Assembly: GCA_002720635.1 (NCBI GenBank)
Contig: PBJD01000022.1
Span: 1 to 32,714, forward strand
DNA from: Flavobacteriales bacterium
GTDB lineage: Bacteria; Bacteroidota; Bacteroidia; Flavobacteriales_C; GCA-002722245
Reading direction: 5' to 3'
Length of the DNA: 32,714 nt
The position numbers and the translations under genes are program-made. Of the stretch, positions 17,574 through 29,833 are shown one piece after another. Below the pieces are notes generated by a model. That model made no database searches. It was given only the letters and a program-made list of their open reading frames with translations, and was not told the origin of the DNA. Position 1 is the stretch's first letter, and each line of letters begins with the position of its first letter.

Positions 17574-18866
17574 TTATATTTTATCTAACAGATACTGTTT
17601 AAACTCATTAAAATCCGGTTTAATCAAAGTCGCAACTTTATCTCTTCTCATATATTCCTGGAGCCTTTCAGGCACATCAATCTTTTGACCAATCACTGGT
17701 TCAACAACATCTCCAAATTTAGCAGGATGTGCCGTTTCCAAGACAATACCTTGAACATCATTTGATTTTTGGTATTCTTTTACCGCCATATAGCCAATAA
17801 CTCCATGAGGTTCCATAAGATATCCCGTTCTGGAGATTACATCTCTCATACCTTCTTTTGTTTCCTCATCACTAAAAGCGTATCCCACCATTGACTCTTT
17901 TACCTTTTCCCAATCCCCTCCATGCAATTCCAATATTCTTACAAAATTGGACGGGTCACCAATATCCATAGCATTGGAAATCGTTGGAATAGATGGGCGA
18001 GCTTTGTAGATCCCCGTTCTTAAATATTCTGGAACCACATCGTTGGCATTTGTTGCTCCAATAAATCTAGCGATAGGAAGGCCCATTTGTTTAGCAAACA
18101 TACCCGCAGTTAAGTTTCCAAAATTCCCTGACGGGCAAGAATAAACGACAGGTTTCGTTTTATCTTCCAATTGCTCGTATGAACCAAAATAGTAAAATGA
18201 TTGTGGTAAGAAACGAGCAACATTAATTGAGTTAGCAGAAGATAATTTCATAGCTGCTCTTAATTCAGGATCATTGAACGCCTGTTTAACCATTGCCTGA
18301 CAGTCATCGAATGATCCTTCGACCTCTAAGGTAGAAATGTTCTGCCCCATTGTGGTAAGTTGCTGCTCTTGAATTTTAGATACTAACCCTTTCGGATAAA
18401 GGATTACAACGTCAATTCCTTCCACTCCCAGAAATCCAGAAGCAACAGCTGATCCAGTATCACCAGAAGTAGCCACAAGTATCGTTATCTTTTCTCCGCT
18501 CTCCTGAACAAAATGTGATAAACATCTTCCTAAAAAACGTCCGCCTACATCTTTAAAAGCACAAGTTGGACCATGCCATAATTCCAGGGAGTAAACATCC
18601 TTTTCAACCTCAACAATTGGCAAAGGGAAATTTACAGTTTCAGAAACAATTCTTTTTAAATCTGAATCAGGTATTTCACCATCGACAAACCTTTTTGCAA
18701 CTTCATATCCCAGCTCCTCAACAGAAGCTCCGGAACCAATTAATCCCTTTGGTAACTCATCAATTCTCTCAGGAAAATATAACCCACCGTCAGGGGCCAA
18801 TCCTCTTATTACAGCATCCTTAAAGGATACTTTTTCAGAATTTTTTCTTGTACTGTAGTATTTCAT
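17574..18866 (-). CDS. thrC: Threonine synthase
   Basis: MKYYSTRKNSEKVSFKDAVIRGLAPDGGLYFPE, LELWHGPTCAFKDVGGRFL, ILVATSGDTGSAVASGF, YSCPSGNFGNLTAG. Confidence 0.97.
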   Translation of the reverse strand: MKYYSTRKNSEKVSFKDAVIRGLAPDGGLYFPERIDELPKGLIGSGASVEELGYEVAKRFVDGEIPDSDLKRIVSETVNFPLPIVEVEKDVYSLELWHGPTCAFKDVGGRFLGRCLSHFVQESGEKITILVATSGDTGSAVASGFLGVEGIDVVILYPKGLVSKIQEQQLTTMGQNISTLEVEGSFDDCQAMVKQAFNDPELRAAMKLSSANSINVARFLPQSFYYFGSYEQLEDKTKPVVYSCPSGNFGNLTAGMFAKQMGLPIARFIGATNANDVVPEYLRTGIYKARPSIPTISNAMDIGDPSNFVRILELHGGDWEKVKESMVGYAFSDEETKEGMRDVISRTGYLMEPHGVIGYMAVKEYQKSNDVQGIVLETAHPAKFGDVVEPVIGQKIDVPERLQEYMRRDKVATLIKPDFNEFKQYLLDKI

Positions 18867-19792
18867 TACCCTATAACTTTAGCCCCTTCAGAATTAACCT
18901 GAGAAACATGAATTTCGAAATCAACGCCATATTGAGTATACACATCACCCATTGCCGCCTTTACTTTATTTGCGGTTTCTTCCCCTTTAGACAAACCAAA
19001 AATAGAAGGTCCAGAACCTGAAATAGAACAACCTAAAGCCCCAGCTTCAATAGTTGCCCTTTTAACTTTTTCATAACCGGGTATAAGAATTGAACGAATT
19101 GGCTCAATAACAACATCTACTAATGATCGCCCTATTAAATCATAGTCTTCAGAATATAATCCCGCAACTAAACCTCCAACATTACCCCATTGAGTAATTG
19201 CTTTGGAAAGATCAATACCTCCCTTTAAAACTCTACGAGCATCCCTTGTCTTTACCTCCAGTTGAGGATGAATAACTGTCGCCCAAAGCTCTTTTGGAGA
19301 ATCTATTTTAATAATATCCAAAGGTTCGTAAGACCTTACCAAAGTAAAACCACCACAAATTGAAGGTGCTACATTATCCGCATGCGCGACACCAGTTGCA
19401 CAACGTTCTCCTTCCATTGCAAACTTAACCAACTCTTTTTTTGTGAAAGGAGTTCCTAATAATTCATTTACAGCAACTACTGCAGCTGCTGAACTGGCTG
19501 CTGAACTTCCAATTCCACTTCCTGGCTTTACGCCTTTAGTTAATTCGATTTCAAAACCTTGATCAGATCCTAATTTATCCAAAAGTGCTTTCACTGCCAC
19601 TCCAGCTACATTTTTATCAGCTGCAAGAGGCAAATTTTCCGCATTATGACAAGCAGTAATTACAATATCGTTTTTATTAGTTTTTGTAACCAACGCCTCA
19701 TCACCCGGGTAATCCAAGGCCAAACCTAAAACATCGAAACCACATGCTACATTAGCAACAGTTGCTGGGGCAAATACTTTTAACTGATTCAT
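18866..19792 (-). CDS. thrB: Homoserine kinase
   Basis: KVFAPATVANVACGFDVLGLALDYPGDE, KPGSGIGSSAASSAAAVVAVNELLG, GALGCSISGSGPSIFGL: GHMP kinase. Confidence 0.97.
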   Translation of the reverse strand: MNQLKVFAPATVANVACGFDVLGLALDYPGDEALVTKTNKNDIVITACHNAENLPLAADKNVAGVAVKALLDKLGSDQGFEIELTKGVKPGSGIGSSAASSAAAVVAVNELLGTPFTKKELVKFAMEGERCATGVAHADNVAPSICGGFTLVRSYEPLDIIKIDSPKELWATVIHPQLEVKTRDARRVLKGGIDLSKAITQWGNVGGLVAGLYSEDYDLIGRSLVDVVIEPIRSILIPGYEKVKRATIEAGALGCSISGSGPSIFGLSKGEETANKVKAAMGDVYTQYGVDFEIHVSQVNSEGAKVIG

Positions 19793-19795
19793 TTT

Positions 19796-22228
19796 TTAAT
19801 AGTTAGCAATTCTTACAATGTCCGCAAAAACCCCTGCGGCAGTGACTCCCGCTCCTGCCCCCGCTCCTTGAATAACCATGGGTTGTGAAACATACCTATC
19901 TGTATACAATGCTACTGTATTATCAGTTCCTTGCAAATTATAAAATGGATGAGTTGAGTCAACGGCTTGCAATTCAACAGTTGCTTTTCCATCCTCATAC
20001 TTAGCAATAACTCTTAATTTTCTATCTTCAGATTGAGCATTTCCAACCATTTGTCGGAAAGTTGATTCGTCATTCTTTAACAACTGGAAAAAATCTTCCA
20101 CAGTATCTACTTCGAAGCAAGCTTTAGGAAGAATATCTTTTACCTCTATATCATCAAATTCCATTTTAATTCCTGCTTCACGAACCAGAATTAATATTTT
20201 ACGTTTAACATCCACGCCTGATAAATCTATTCTTGGATCTGGCTCAGTATACCCTTCCGTTTTTGCCTGCATTACAACATCATGAAAAGTATTACTTCCA
20301 TCATATGTATTGAAAATAAAATTTAATGATCCAGAAACTGTAGCCTCTATTTTTTGAATTCGATCTCCAGAATGAACCAAATCGTTAATGGTCCCAATTA
20401 CCGGAAGACCTGCTCCAACATTTGTTTCATACAAAAACTTAACATTATTCTTCAAACATATTGCTTTAAGTTCTTGATATAATTCATAATCCGAAGAGCA
20501 AGCAATTTTATTTGCAGTAACAACATTAATATTATTTTCCAACGCTGTTTTATATACTGATGCAATTTCATAATTTGCCGTACAGTCAACAAAAACAGAA
20601 TTTCTTAAATTTAATTCAGAAATTTTATCAATTAAAATATCTTTCTCAAAAGCATCTGAAGAAGCATCCACTTTATCTTGCCATCCATCAAGATCAATTC
20701 CTTCAGAATCCAGCAACATCTTTTTTGAATTTGCCAGCCCAGCAACACGAACTACAATATTTGAATTTTTCTGTAACACTTTTTGTTGTTGCTTTACCTG
20801 CTCAACTAAAGTTCCTCCAACATTACCTACACCAACCACAAAAAGGTTGAGCACTTTGTTTGATCCTTCAAAATGGTTTTCATGAAGTACATTTAATGCT
20901 TTTTTAACATCTTTTTCTTCTATCACTGCCGAAATATTTCTCTCTGATGATCCTTGAGCAATAGCTCTCATATTTACTCCATTACTTCCAAGTGTGTTAA
21001 ACATTTTTCCACTCACATTAACCTGTCCACTCATCTTTTCACCAACTAAGGCAATAACCGACAAACCAGTTTCAACTCTTGGACTATTAATTTTTCCTGT
21101 TTGAATTTCAAACTCAAATTCTTCTTTAACCGCATCAACCGCAAGGGTTATATCTTCTGGGTTAATTGCAAATGATATTGAATGCTCAGATGATGCCTGA
21201 GTAATTAAAATAATATTCACTTTCGCTTTGGAAAGAGCACCAAATAAACGAGCTGATATTCCAGGAATACCAATCATACCGGAACCACTTAAACTCGCAA
21301 GAGCTATCTTGTCAATTGAACTAATCCCTTTAATCGGCATACCTTCATCAGCACTTGCAGTAATTAAGGTACCTTGATCTTCTGGAGAAAAAGTATTTTT
21401 AATTTTTAGAGGAATTCCTTTTTTGTAAACAGGCAAAATTGTTGGCGGATAAATAACCTTCGCTCCAAAATGAGAAAGCTCCATAGCTTCCTTATAAGAA
21501 GCAAACTTGACCGGGAATGCAGATTTCACCTTCCTTGGATCCGCAGTATACATACCGCTAACGTCGGTCCATATTTGTAATTCAGCAGCATTTGATCCTG
21601 CTGCAAACAAAGCGGCAGAGAAATCAGACCCACCTCTTCCCAAAGTAGAAGTTACTCCCTCCTCTGTAGAAGCTACAAAACCAGGAGCAACAAATACATT
21701 TGAACTGCTCGACTCAAAAAATTCTTGAATTTTTTTATAAGTTCTGTCATACAAAACAGTAGCTCCTCCAAATTCAGTATTAGTTGATATCAATGATTTT
21801 GAATCGACCAATTCGGCTCCAATGGATTTACTAAGTAAAATGGACGAGAGTGATTCTCCAAAACTAACAATATAATCAGATGTTTTAAGAGACAGCTCTC
21901 TAACAAGATAAACTCCATTTAATATATCTTCTAATTGGTTTAAAAGAACTTTAACATTAGCAATCACTCCACTTTGCTGATCAATTGTAATTAATTCCCG
22001 AATCGCATCGAAATGTTTGTTTTCGATTTTTTTTACAATTTCTTTATACGAACCATCTCCATTCGCAGCTAATTGACTTGCAGCTAAAAGTTTATTGGTG
22101 ACTTGCGTCATAGCTGAAACAACTACAATTATCCTATCATCTTTTGCCTCATTAGCAATTATATTTTTCACCTTTTTGATAGATTCTGCTGTCCCTACAG
22201 ATGTTCCTCCAAATTTTAAAACCTTCAT
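19796..22228 (-). CDS. thrA: Bifunctional aspartate kinase/homoserine dehydrogenase
   Basis: MKVLKFGGTSVGTAESI, ACT region, then LNLFVVGVGNVGGTLVEQVKQQ and ETNVGAGLPVIGTINDLVHSGD of homoserine dehydrogenase. Confidence 0.98.
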   Translation of the reverse strand: MKVLKFGGTSVGTAESIKKVKNIIANEAKDDRIIVVVSAMTQVTNKLLAASQLAANGDGSYKEIVKKIENKHFDAIRELITIDQQSGVIANVKVLLNQLEDILNGVYLVRELSLKTSDYIVSFGESLSSILLSKSIGAELVDSKSLISTNTEFGGATVLYDRTYKKIQEFFESSSSNVFVAPGFVASTEEGVTSTLGRGGSDFSAALFAAGSNAAELQIWTDVSGMYTADPRKVKSAFPVKFASYKEAMELSHFGAKVIYPPTILPVYKKGIPLKIKNTFSPEDQGTLITASADEGMPIKGISSIDKIALASLSGSGMIGIPGISARLFGALSKAKVNIILITQASSEHSISFAINPEDITLAVDAVKEEFEFEIQTGKINSPRVETGLSVIALVGEKMSGQVNVSGKMFNTLGSNGVNMRAIAQGSSERNISAVIEEKDVKKALNVLHENHFEGSNKVLNLFVVGVGNVGGTLVEQVKQQQKVLQKNSNIVVRVAGLANSKKMLLDSEGIDLDGWQDKVDASSDAFEKDILIDKISELNLRNSVFVDCTANYEIASVYKTALENNINVVTANKIACSSDYELYQELKAICLKNNVKFLYETNVGAGLPVIGTINDLVHSGDRIQKIEATVSGSLNFIFNTYDGSNTFHDVVMQAKTEGYTEPDPRIDLSGVDVKRKILILVREAGIKMEFDDIEVKDILPKACFEVDTVEDFFQLLKNDESTFRQMVGNAQSEDRKLRVIAKYEDGKATVELQAVDSTHPFYNLQGTDNTVALYTDRYVSQPMVIQGAGAGAGVTAAGVFADIVRIANY

Positions 22229-22257
22229 TTCTATTTTTTTAAATTGTTTCGAACTGC

Positions 22258-22270
22258 GCGCCTAAGGCGC
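22258..22270 (-). repeat. GC-rich hairpin GCGCC-TTA-GGCGC in the thrA 5' leader
   Basis: Perfect self-complementary arms about 30 nt upstream of thrA ATG. Confidence 0.5.
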
Positions 22271-22290
22271 AAAAATATTGAATTATGTCG

Positions 22291-22312
22291 TGACTAAATA
22301 ACGATTTAGTCA
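22291..22312 (-). repeat. Hairpin TGACTAAAT-CGTT-ATTTAGTCA in the thrA 5' leader
   Basis: Perfect 9-bp arms around a 4-nt loop. Confidence 0.6.
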
Positions 22313-22345
22313 GAAATAACGATAGTAGTATATTATATGTGAAAA

Positions 22346-22432
22346 TTACGCCCCAAAAGGGGTGATAATAGCGATAGCGATAGTGGTAATTATCGATGTG
22401 TTTTGAATTGTATTTATGCTATTATTTCTCAT
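22346..22432 (-). CDS. Putative thr operon leader peptide MRNNSINTIQNTSIITTIAIAIITPFGA
   Basis: Minus-strand ATG AGA AAT AAT AGC ATA AAT ACA ATT CAA AAC ACA TCG ATA ATT ACC ACT ATC GCT ATC GCT ATT ATC ACC CCT TTT GGG GCG TAA. 5 Thr and 8 Ile in 28 residues; stop overlaps a CCCCTTTTGGGG hairpin; upstream of thrA. Confidence 0.78.
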   Translation of the reverse strand: MRNNSINTIQNTSIITTIAIAIITPFGA

Positions 22433-22440
22433 TTACATCT

Positions 22441-22448
22441 CAAATATA
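22441..22448 (-). promoter_or_regulatory. Bacteroidota-type -7 box TATATTTG for the thr leader
   Basis: Exact TAnnTTTG on the minus strand, 8 nt before the leader ATG. Confidence 0.5.
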
Positions 22449-22495: not shown

Positions 22496-23233
22496 ATGCG
22501 CAGAAAAATCACCATATTATTTTTCATGTACTCTCTAATATTTTCGGGATGTTCTCCAAAATTTCATGACAGTTATAGCGGAAAAGGAGACGGAAGAAGC
22601 TATAAAATCAGGTTTAATGATTCCTACGGAGGAGGAAGTGGGAGAAGAAGCCAACTGGGATATAAAGATTCATACCGTGGTAGAACTGGTGGACGAAAAA
22701 ACCAAATGCGCTATCGAGATGCATACAGCGGACAAGCAGGTGGACGAAGAAGCCAAATGAGGTTCAGGGACACATACAGTGGAGTAACAGGTGGACGAAA
22801 AAATCAAATGCGATTCAGAGATTCTTATGGTGGAAGTAGTGGACGAAAAAATCAACACGGATTTAAAGATTCTTACGGAGGGGAAAATGGACGAAAACGA
22901 CAACATGGTTTCAGGGATTCTTATGGAAGTAAAAGTAAAGGCAGAAAAGGACAACTTGGATTTAAAGATTCCTACAGCTCTGCTAACTCCAGAAAATTAA
23001 ACTCAAAATTTAAAGATTCATACAGTTCAAATAATTCGAGAAAATTAAACTCAAAATTTAAAGATTCATACAGCTCAAAACAAATCGGTAATTCTGAAAG
23101 CAAAAGTATTATTGGAATTAAATTCAAACTATTTAAAAAACGGGATAGTTATAACTCTCCCTCCAAAAAACATAAAATTCCCAAAAAAAAGAAAAAAATA
23201 AATCGTTCAACTCGATTTGAAGGAATGAAGTAA
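22496..23233 (+). CDS. Basic repeat lipoprotein with tandem DSYxG..GRKxQxxF repeats
   Basis: Signal peptide and lipobox (MRRKITILFFMYSLIFSGC) then units such as DAYSGQAGGRRSQMRFR, DTYSGVTGGRKNQMRFR, DSYGGSSGRKNQHGFK, DSYSSNNSRKLNSKFK. Confidence 0.82.
   Translation: MRRKITILFFMYSLIFSGCSPKFHDSYSGKGDGRSYKIRFNDSYGGGSGRRSQLGYKDSYRGRTGGRKNQMRYRDAYSGQAGGRRSQMRFRDTYSGVTGGRKNQMRFRDSYGGSSGRKNQHGFKDSYGGENGRKRQHGFRDSYGSKSKGRKGQLGFKDSYSSANSRKLNSKFKDSYSSNNSRKLNSKFKDSYSSKQIGNSESKSIIGIKFKLFKKRDSYNSPSKKHKIPKKKKKINRSTRFEGMK
22568..23158 (+). repeat. In-frame tandem repeats of 48-51 bp (about 10 regular and 2 degenerate units)
   Basis: DSY/DAY/DTY at 16-17 aa spacing. The final units starting at 22964, 23012 and 23060 have an exact 48-bp period and share AGAAAATTAAACTCAAAATTTAAAGATTCATACAG almost identically. 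Confidence 0.85.
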
Positions 23234-28682: not shown

Positions 28683-29789
28683 ATGAGTTTGGATAATATT
28701 AAAAGAATTAAAGATTGGGGATTAGGAATAAAAGATCATATGATTGTTTCTGGCCCTTGTAGTGCTGAAACTGAAGAGCAGGTATTGAGTACGGCCAGAG
28801 AAGTTTCGAAAGATGGAAGAGTCAATGTACTTAGGGCAGGTATATGGAAGCCAAGAACAAGACCTGGTTCTTTCGAAGGAATTGGAGAGGTTGGTTTAGA
28901 ATGGCTAAATAAAGCAAAGGCAGAAACTGGATTATTAACCGCTACTGAAGTTGCAAATGCTGCTCATGTTGAAGCATGTTTAAAAGCAGGAATTGACATC
29001 TTATGGGTTGGTGCAAGAACCACAGTAAACCCTTTCTCTGTTCAGGAAGTAGCTGATGCTTTGAAAGGTGTTAACATTCCTGTACTTGTAAAAAACCCCA
29101 TTAATCCGGATTTAAGTTTATGGCAAGGAGGGTTGGAGCGAATTGCTTCTGCCGGTATCACAAGGTTAGCTGCCATTCACCGAGGGTTTTCTACTTATGA
29201 AAAAACACCATTCCGAAATTTACCAAAATGGGACATGGCTATTGAAATGATGAGAAAATTTCCTCAAATAGATATTATAAACGACCCGTCACACATTGCA
29301 GGGAATAGAGACCTGTTGCCTTATGTATGTCAAAAAGCAATTGACTTAAACATGGAAGGGTTAATGATTGAATCTCATATTTCCCCATCAGTAGCATGGT
29401 CAGATGCCGCCCAGCAAGTTTCACCGAGTGGTTTAACCGAATTATTAGACAGTTTAACCTTTAGGCAGGAATCCGTAGAAACAGCAGATGCAAATCAACT
29501 GGACTCATTGAGAAAAGAAATCGATGAACTGGATGATGATATTTTCCAAAAAATTGCATCGAGGATGAACGTGGCAGACCAGATTGGAAAATACAAAAGA
29601 GACAATAGTGTTACTATTTTGCAAGTTGATCGATGGGAAGAAATTGTTAATAAAAGAGTTTCATTAGGTGTTGCTATGGGATTAGATGATAATTTTGTCA
29701 AAAATTACTTGAAATTAATTCACAAAGAATCTATACGCCGTCAAAACCTCGTAATGAATGAGGTTCAAGCTGAGTTGGCTGGAAAATAA
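28683..29789 (+). CDS. Bifunctional 3-deoxy-7-phosphoheptulonate synthase/chorismate mutase
   Basis: HMIVSGPCSAETEEQVLSTA..VLRAGIWKPRTRPGSFEGIG..DPSHIAGNRDLLP then the chorismate mutase helix LRKEIDELDDDIFQKIASRMNVADQIGKYKRDNSVTILQVDRWEEIVNKRV. Confidence 0.96.
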   Translation: MSLDNIKRIKDWGLGIKDHMIVSGPCSAETEEQVLSTAREVSKDGRVNVLRAGIWKPRTRPGSFEGIGEVGLEWLNKAKAETGLLTATEVANAAHVEACLKAGIDILWVGARTTVNPFSVQEVADALKGVNIPVLVKNPINPDLSLWQGGLERIASAGITRLAAIHRGFSTYEKTPFRNLPKWDMAIEMMRKFPQIDIINDPSHIAGNRDLLPYVCQKAIDLNMEGLMIESHISPSVAWSDAAQQVSPSGLTELLDSLTFRQESVETADANQLDSLRKEIDELDDDIFQKIASRMNVADQIGKYKRDNSVTILQVDRWEEIVNKRVSLGVAMGLDDNFVKNYLKLIHKESIRRQNLVMNEVQAELAGK

Positions 29790-29802: not shown

Positions 29803-29833
29803 AAAAAAGGCCAGGATCTCCTGGCCTTTTTTT
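29803..29833. terminator. Bidirectional intrinsic terminator AAAAAAGGCCAGGATCTCCTGGCCTTTTTTT
   Basis: GC-rich stem AGGCCAGG/CCTGGCCT flanked by A and T tracts between convergent DAHP synthase and ruvB. Confidence 0.92.

Follow-up and report, generated by a model that had tools for sequence, protein, structure and literature searches.

A conserved Thr/Ile-rich leader ORF and RNA hairpin upstream of thrA in Bacteroidota as candidates for leader-based control of thrABC

The principle of a leader in which the ribosome serves as the sensor is known from Escherichia coli, and control by leader peptides has been studied best in Proteobacteria and Actinobacteria. Bacteroidota use promoters of their own and rely little on Shine-Dalgarno sequences. 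A short open reading frame (ORF) upstream of thrA in a Flavobacteriales bacterium raises the question of whether the threonine operon of this organism is under such control and, if so, by which step the position of the ribosome would affect the operon. The window, i.e., the whole stretch of 32,714 nucleotides analyzed here, stems from a draft genome of 1.95 Mb that is 77.8% complete; for the order to which the organism belongs, our data set contains ten genomes from two genera of a single family.

The preliminary description of this DNA had pointed out a Thr/Ile-rich ORF at 22346-22432 on the reverse strand, and this ORF was recovered letter for letter. It has 28 codons and encodes MRNNSINTIQNTSIITTIAIAIITPFGA, in which 13/28 residues are Thr or Ile (8 Ile and 5 Thr), and its stop codon lies 117 nt from the ATG of thrA at 22228. 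As had also been remarked, it is absent from the first-stage ORF track owing to its length. The identity of the downstream genes, all on the same strand as the ORF, is borne out by family matches: thrA, for the bifunctional aspartokinase/homoserine dehydrogenase I (19796-22228; NF006959, 1016 bits), is followed by thrB for homoserine kinase (18866-19792; NF002288/TIGR00191) and thrC for threonine synthase (17574-18866; TIGR00260), and together they form a complete operon. The biosynthetic operon is thus preceded by a short ORF in which codons for the products of its own pathway are frequent. A divergent ORF of 245 aa on the forward strand (22496-23233) contains imperfect repeats of 48-51 nt, i.e., about 16-17 residues each, and has no match in Pfam.

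The four remaining genomes of the genus all have a leader at the equivalent position, where it reads MKKGSITSTQKSTIITIIATAIITPFGA, MISKNILLISATTTVIAIAIITPFGV, MPNNSTNIIQIKATISIIAVAIITPIGV and MPNNSTNIIQIKATMFINATAIITPIGV (loci L002-L005). In 5/5 members of the genus, the peptide has diverged, with the frame, the length (26-28 codons) and the ending AIITP(F/I)G being kept. For a wider comparison, 238 non-identical thrA upstream regions were assembled from 80 loci from genome contigs, three genome surveys and 80 further stretches; this set is rich in Flavobacteriaceae and its members are not independent. The best short ORF in each region was scored by its number of Thr and Ile residues per 12 residues, and first-order Markov copies and the reverse strand served as controls. 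A score of 7 or more was reached in 63% of the 238 regions, versus 0.8% of the Markov copies and 0% on the reverse strand; at the level of the ORF in the window, i.e., at least 9 in 12, these numbers were 24% versus 0.02% for the Markov controls. Because the peptides differ greatly, relatedness alone is insufficient to account for this excess. Such leaders were seen before thrA across the Flavobacteriia and in other Bacteroidia, at a distance from thrA that ranges among relatives from about 50 to 190 nt. In the upstream regions of monofunctional aspartokinase genes of the same genomes (L006, L007, L014-L018), no such leader was found, with scores of 2 to 6 of 12. A comparison of the thrA upstream regions of relatives had been proposed as a check in the preliminary description, and its outcome was clearly favorable, with a leader in the whole genus, in Flavobacteriia and in other Bacteroidia and with a promoter box ahead of it. 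One result counts against control by a leader: in the sister genus (L009-L013), thrA has a different upstream region with neither leader nor hairpin, and this genus has lost the leader or never had it. Immediately 5' of thrA, these five loci have a TATTTTCG box in place of the leader.

The promoter box in the window is TATATTTG, a predicted -7 box at 22441-22448 on the reverse strand that conforms to the sigma-A consensus of Bacteroidota, TAnnTTTG. In Flavobacterium psychrophilum, this consensus sits at -12 to -5 (PMC9723704). Transcription is predicted to start at about position 22436, 4 nt 5' of the ATG of the leader. Among the loci with a leader, TAnnTTTG was found 5' of it in 164/182, versus 17 expected, mostly 4-22 nt before the ATG; 3' of the stop codon of the leader, it was found in 24 loci versus 12.5 expected. 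By these boxes, here and in the 164/182 loci, the leader is predicted to lie within the transcribed 5' region. A second TAnnTTTG box, TATTTTTG at 22270-22277 on the reverse strand, is part of the block AATATTTTTGCGCCT, which is invariant in all five members of the genus, and its distance to thrA is 48-49 nt in 4/5 of them and 93 nt in L003. It may be a promoter whose transcripts bypass the leader, and it counts in that respect against control by the leader.

RNA folding predicts that the leader ORF ends in a hairpin, CCCC-UUUU-GGGG (hairpin 1; 22351-22362, reverse strand), which is followed directly by the stop codon UAA at 22348-22346. A hairpin of this type, with the conserved form ACCCY-loop-RGGGGU, was present as ACCC..GGG in the leader region of 191/238 loci. 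In 186/191, the open leader reads its ACC as a Thr codon, in a constant frame, and in 176/186 the stop codon is located at one of three offsets from the first A of the hairpin, i.e., at 6 nt, which is in the loop (79 loci), at 12 nt (33 loci) or at 15 nt (64 loci). The same hairpin is translated in different clades as TP, TL, TPLG, TPFGV or TLWGY, each followed directly by the stop. Since the C-termini vary while the hairpin persists, the end of the leader is conserved as RNA and not as peptide. In the five codons that precede hairpin 1 (-1 to -5), the share of Thr is 56-70%, and it has dropped to about 5% by codon -28. Thus, the Thr codons and the stop are positioned such that stalled or finishing ribosomes would overlap the conserved hairpin: judged from the size of its footprint, a ribosome at these Thr codons would cover the 5' arm, whereas the whole hairpin would be covered by a ribosome at the stop codon. 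The sequence of hairpin 1 is too conserved to tell whether its arms covary. In another family of Bacteroidia (L117, L118), thr leaders end in ACGGG-GUGA-CCCGU, a hairpin made of other bases that likewise has the stop in the loop. The leaders of L117-L121 end in TTG or ITG before the stop, which is located in the loop of a stem of this type, and in some of them a CGCCCC further 3' could pair with GGGGUG.

The hairpin is followed by a peculiar linker. In the window, the conserved motif ACATATAAT, of the type (C/T)ATAT, is found 10 nt 3' of hairpin 1 (22332-22340, reverse strand), and in 149/191 loci this motif occurs 8-14 nt past the last G of the hairpin. The 20 nt 3' of hairpin 1 contain 3.6% G and 18.4% C, which gives a C/G ratio of 5.1, versus 0.97 upstream of the promoter.

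Further structure is predicted on both sides of hairpin 1. Inside the leader ORF (22365-22425, reverse strand), RNA folding pairs 22425-22415 with 22376-22365, enclosing a hairpin of 22395-22391 with 22382-22378. This stem between the start and the end of the ORF is predicted in all five members of the genus in spite of their different sequences, and in 97 non-redundant loci the 72 nt 5' of hairpin 1 have a more stable fold than their codon-shuffled counterparts (mean z -1.12 +/- 0.12). The stem lies 5' of the regulatory codons and reaches into them; it perhaps provides a synchronizing pause. Downstream, the AU-rich hairpin 2, UGACUAAAU-CGUU-AUUUAGUCA (22291-22312, reverse strand), has no U-run directly 3' of it. 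One of its pairs is changed on both sides in L004 and L005, from C-G to U-A; over the five sequences of the genus, covariation was not above that in shuffles. Hairpin 3, GCGCC-UUA-GGCGC (22258-22270, reverse strand), is conserved in the genus, and both hairpins 2 and 3 stop short of the start of thrA in the predicted fold.

The specificity of this arrangement for thrA was assessed with a covariance model of 44 positions, R1, which comprises hairpin 1 and the G-poor linker. The 18 sequences used to build it came from other families, and the genus studied here contributed none. The parts that define the element, i.e., an ACCCY-loop-RGGGGU hairpin, a G-poor linker and a YAUAU motif before thrA, are all found in the window. 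The R1 match at 22326-22369 on the reverse strand (28.7 bits) is the sole match in the genome, with a genome-wide E of 0.12, which is weak on its own. Genome-wide searches also gave matches at thrA in three other members of the genus, and L002 matched in a smaller search. In a Flavobacterium-type genus, 39/61 genomes had one match each, and at E up to 0.5 no genome had more than one; compared with the positions of thrA, these matches fall just 5' of that gene, one genome (G287) being left out of this reading since its thrA match was partial. No R1 match was obtained in the upstream regions of the monofunctional aspartokinase genes of the same genomes. Among known RNA families, Rfam at the gathering threshold had no match in the window and ten loci, the T-box and known riboswitches included. 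RF00506 (Thr_leader) gave no match at E up to 5, and RF01692 (Bacteroid-trp) gave none in the window, in its genome or in 20 relatives. A match to S15-Flavobacteria at 22226-22277 was weak (20.8 bits against 46.5) and was taken as chance. In the genome of the window, a search for the His-leader pattern of five consecutive His codons was negative as well. Judged by its sequence, the thr leader element is an RNA element that is distinct from the E. coli version and has no Rfam family.

The leader, its codon placement, the promoter box, the hairpin, the linker and the specificity for thrA are supported by the sequence. Because the leader is conserved and is combined with a promoter box, suitably placed codons, an RNA hairpin and specificity for thrA, control by a leader is well supported, and we consider it highly probable that thrABC is under cis-acting leader control responsive to Thr and Ile, the output step being excluded from this statement. 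We infer that the leader is translated and that ribosomes stall on it. Transcription would begin a few nt 5' of the ATG of the leader, and a ribosome would translate the leader behind RNA polymerase, reading how much charged tRNA-Thr and tRNA-Ile is available. When Thr or Ile is short, the ribosome would stall at the codons before hairpin 1 and cover its 5' arm, and the hairpin would stay open. When both are plentiful, the ribosome would leave after reaching the stop codon, which lies within the hairpin or just past it, hairpin 1 would form behind RNA polymerase, and the polymerase would stop or dissociate in the G-poor tract downstream, keeping thrABC low. The direction of this response would be that of E. 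coli thrL, from which it is taken by analogy.

How the hairpin would act on expression is a separate matter. The preliminary description had proposed the architecture of enterobacterial thrL, in which stalling controls termination; the leader, the promoter and the placement of the codons agree with this proposal, whereas a canonical hairpin with U-run and a pairing of the G-run of hairpin 1 with the linker, as an antiterminator, do not emerge. In the scan of the window, the stretch from the leader to thrA was devoid of canonical terminators, which counts against control by the leader, and among 123 non-redundant loci hairpins with U-run 3' of the leader were not in excess over shuffles. The organism seems to use canonical terminators, e.g., at 29803-29832 in the same scan. 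That terminator follows a gene for a fusion of DAHP synthase and chorismate mutase type II (28683-29789, forward strand). In non-redundant loci, the G-run formed weaker pairing with its own linker than with shuffled ones (z +0.41 +/- 0.09), and own linkers reached -3.76 kcal/mol versus -4.35 kcal/mol for the linkers of other loci, from which it follows that competition with hairpin 1 is avoided. In this lineage, a mutually exclusive pair of antiterminator and intrinsic terminator, which marks the classical trpL/thrL class, was not found; our claim is one of leader-based control, not of membership in that class.

Nevertheless, a classical four-segment attenuator as in trpL and thrL, with a 1:2 hairpin, a 2:3 antiterminator and a 3:4 terminator formed by hairpin 2, deserves serious consideration as an alternative for the output step only. 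As its logic requires, segment 1 adjoins the Thr codons, and the stop is located within segments 1-2. The region of hairpin 2 has a more stable fold than shuffled sequence (mean z -1.11), the two-sided pair change mentioned above lies in this hairpin, and the textbook form exists in Mucilaginibacter (see below). The G-run also pairs slightly better with the 5' arm of hairpin 2 than expected (-3.43 against -3.11 +/- 0.09 kcal/mol), but this small excess was seen in a set of 127 partly related loci, and the stretch at 31-60 nt showed none in the non-redundant set, where pairing of the G-run with the downstream stretch was at the level of chance. With a hairpin 2 that lacks a U-run, no excess of hairpins with U-run, a G-run that avoids the linker and covariation within the range of shuffles in five sequences, we regard this option as possible, with the balance of evidence somewhat against it.

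Slightly less probable, and also an alternative for the output step only, is Rho-dependent attenuation in the strict form, in which completed translation of the leader would let hairpin 1 close and expose the G-poor, C-containing linker to Rho, unless a stalled ribosome prevents this. The base composition of the linker given above, its avoidance of structure and the failure to find a canonical terminator are as expected, but the tract is short relative to a typical rut site, it is not obvious how a ribosome stalled upstream would shield the linker, and the depletion of G may merely spare hairpin 1 from competitors. We also considered a hairpin-stabilized pause at a fixed spacing; it was rejected because the spacing of the linker motif is not constant, with starts mostly at 9 or 11-13 nt.

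Since antitermination pairing of the G-run is unsupported and terminators with U-run are not enriched, the output that we prefer, although it is unproven, is that RNA polymerase pauses in a hairpin-dependent manner or is released by Rho in the exposed linker; it is ranked, with low certainty, before a weak AU-rich terminator and before control of translation. In its most specific form, this preferred output would be a leader device particular to Bacteroidota that dispenses with an antiterminator/terminator switch: a single small hairpin carrying the stop codon and a nearly G-free, structure-avoiding linker with a conserved YAUAU-AUCC would couple the position of the ribosome directly to pausing of RNA polymerase or release by Rho. 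This is a tentative proposal, which we put no higher than the classical alternative; if true, such a device would be a widespread RNA family absent from Rfam.

Control of the translation of thrA rather than of transcription, via mRNA folding or reinitiation, is improbable. It would fit with the lack of a terminator and with the presence of hairpins between leader and thrA, but hairpins 2 and 3 fall short of the start of thrA and the spacing between leader and thrA varies widely among relatives, as described above. Moreover, the 117 nt between the stop of the leader and the ATG of thrA far exceed the peak at 11-14 bp reported for the distance of leader genes in Bacteroidetes (PMC4833913), a distance that we consider too long for reinitiation at thrA. 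A functional small protein as the product of the ORF is very unlikely: its length and frame are kept, but, apart from these, only the richness in Thr and Ile and the residues encoded by the hairpin are, the C-termini are clade-specific and arise from different stops, and NCBIfam has no match. A chance run of Thr and Ile in AT-rich DNA, in which Ile codons are common, can be dismissed with near certainty, as it is refuted by the Markov and reverse-strand controls, by conservation and by the association with promoter and hairpin.

What is new here is an element that is specific for thrA and widely conserved, for which a covariance model is now available and which includes small genes that are unannotated in many genomes. 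It offers a clear test of the coupling of transcription and translation in Bacteroidota and would make it easier to infer how metabolism is regulated in lineages that have not been cultured.

Whether leaders of this type had been described in the phylum was left open in the preliminary description, and the answer is a partial yes. The abstract of a 2004 article by Vitreschak et al. reportedly mentions candidate attenuators in Bacteroidetes/Chlorobi. The Bacteroid-trp motif, which is presumably a leader-type attenuator, shares with the element in the window that it is a cis-regulatory RNA of Bacteroidetes, but its RF01692 model, as stated above, has no match here. That motif is known in Bacteroidetes as a cis-regulatory RNA, and its name implies trp genes (PMC2864571). 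In F. psychrophilum, which belongs to the same class of bacteria as the organism studied here, amino-acid operons were reported to show strong clues of upstream attenuation by leader peptides; the main text mentions neither thrA nor threonine, and leader sequences and an RNA family are absent from it (PMC9723704). In Bacteroides thetaiotaomicron, small ORFs in long 5' UTRs resemble leader peptides (PMC7366714). For a thr leader of Bacteroidota, the literature searched yielded no description, only general statements and the one trp motif.

Within the phylum, a counterpart was found in Mucilaginibacter (L087, L096), where a Thr/Ile-rich leader, MTINNTTITTIITTGINLGGR, precedes thrA like the one in the window. 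There, the leader ends in GGAGGAAG, which is able to pair with CUUCCUCC; the latter forms the 5' arm of a strong terminator with U7. This pair of terminator and antiterminator shows that the classical layout of a thr leader attenuator does occur in the phylum. The Mucilaginibacter leaders have this textbook switch and no ACCC..GGG hairpin of the type found in the window, whereas in the lineage of the window the switch was not found. The enterobacterial thrL (RF00506), finally, is similar in that a short Thr/Ile-rich ORF is located between the promoter and thrABC and its regulatory codons abut the end hairpin. The leader in the window shares no sequence resemblance with it beyond the richness in Thr and Ile and, unlike thrL, has no canonical GC-rich terminator with U-run; its hairpin is of the ACCCY..RGGGGU type, with the stop codon in the loop or immediately 3' of the hairpin.
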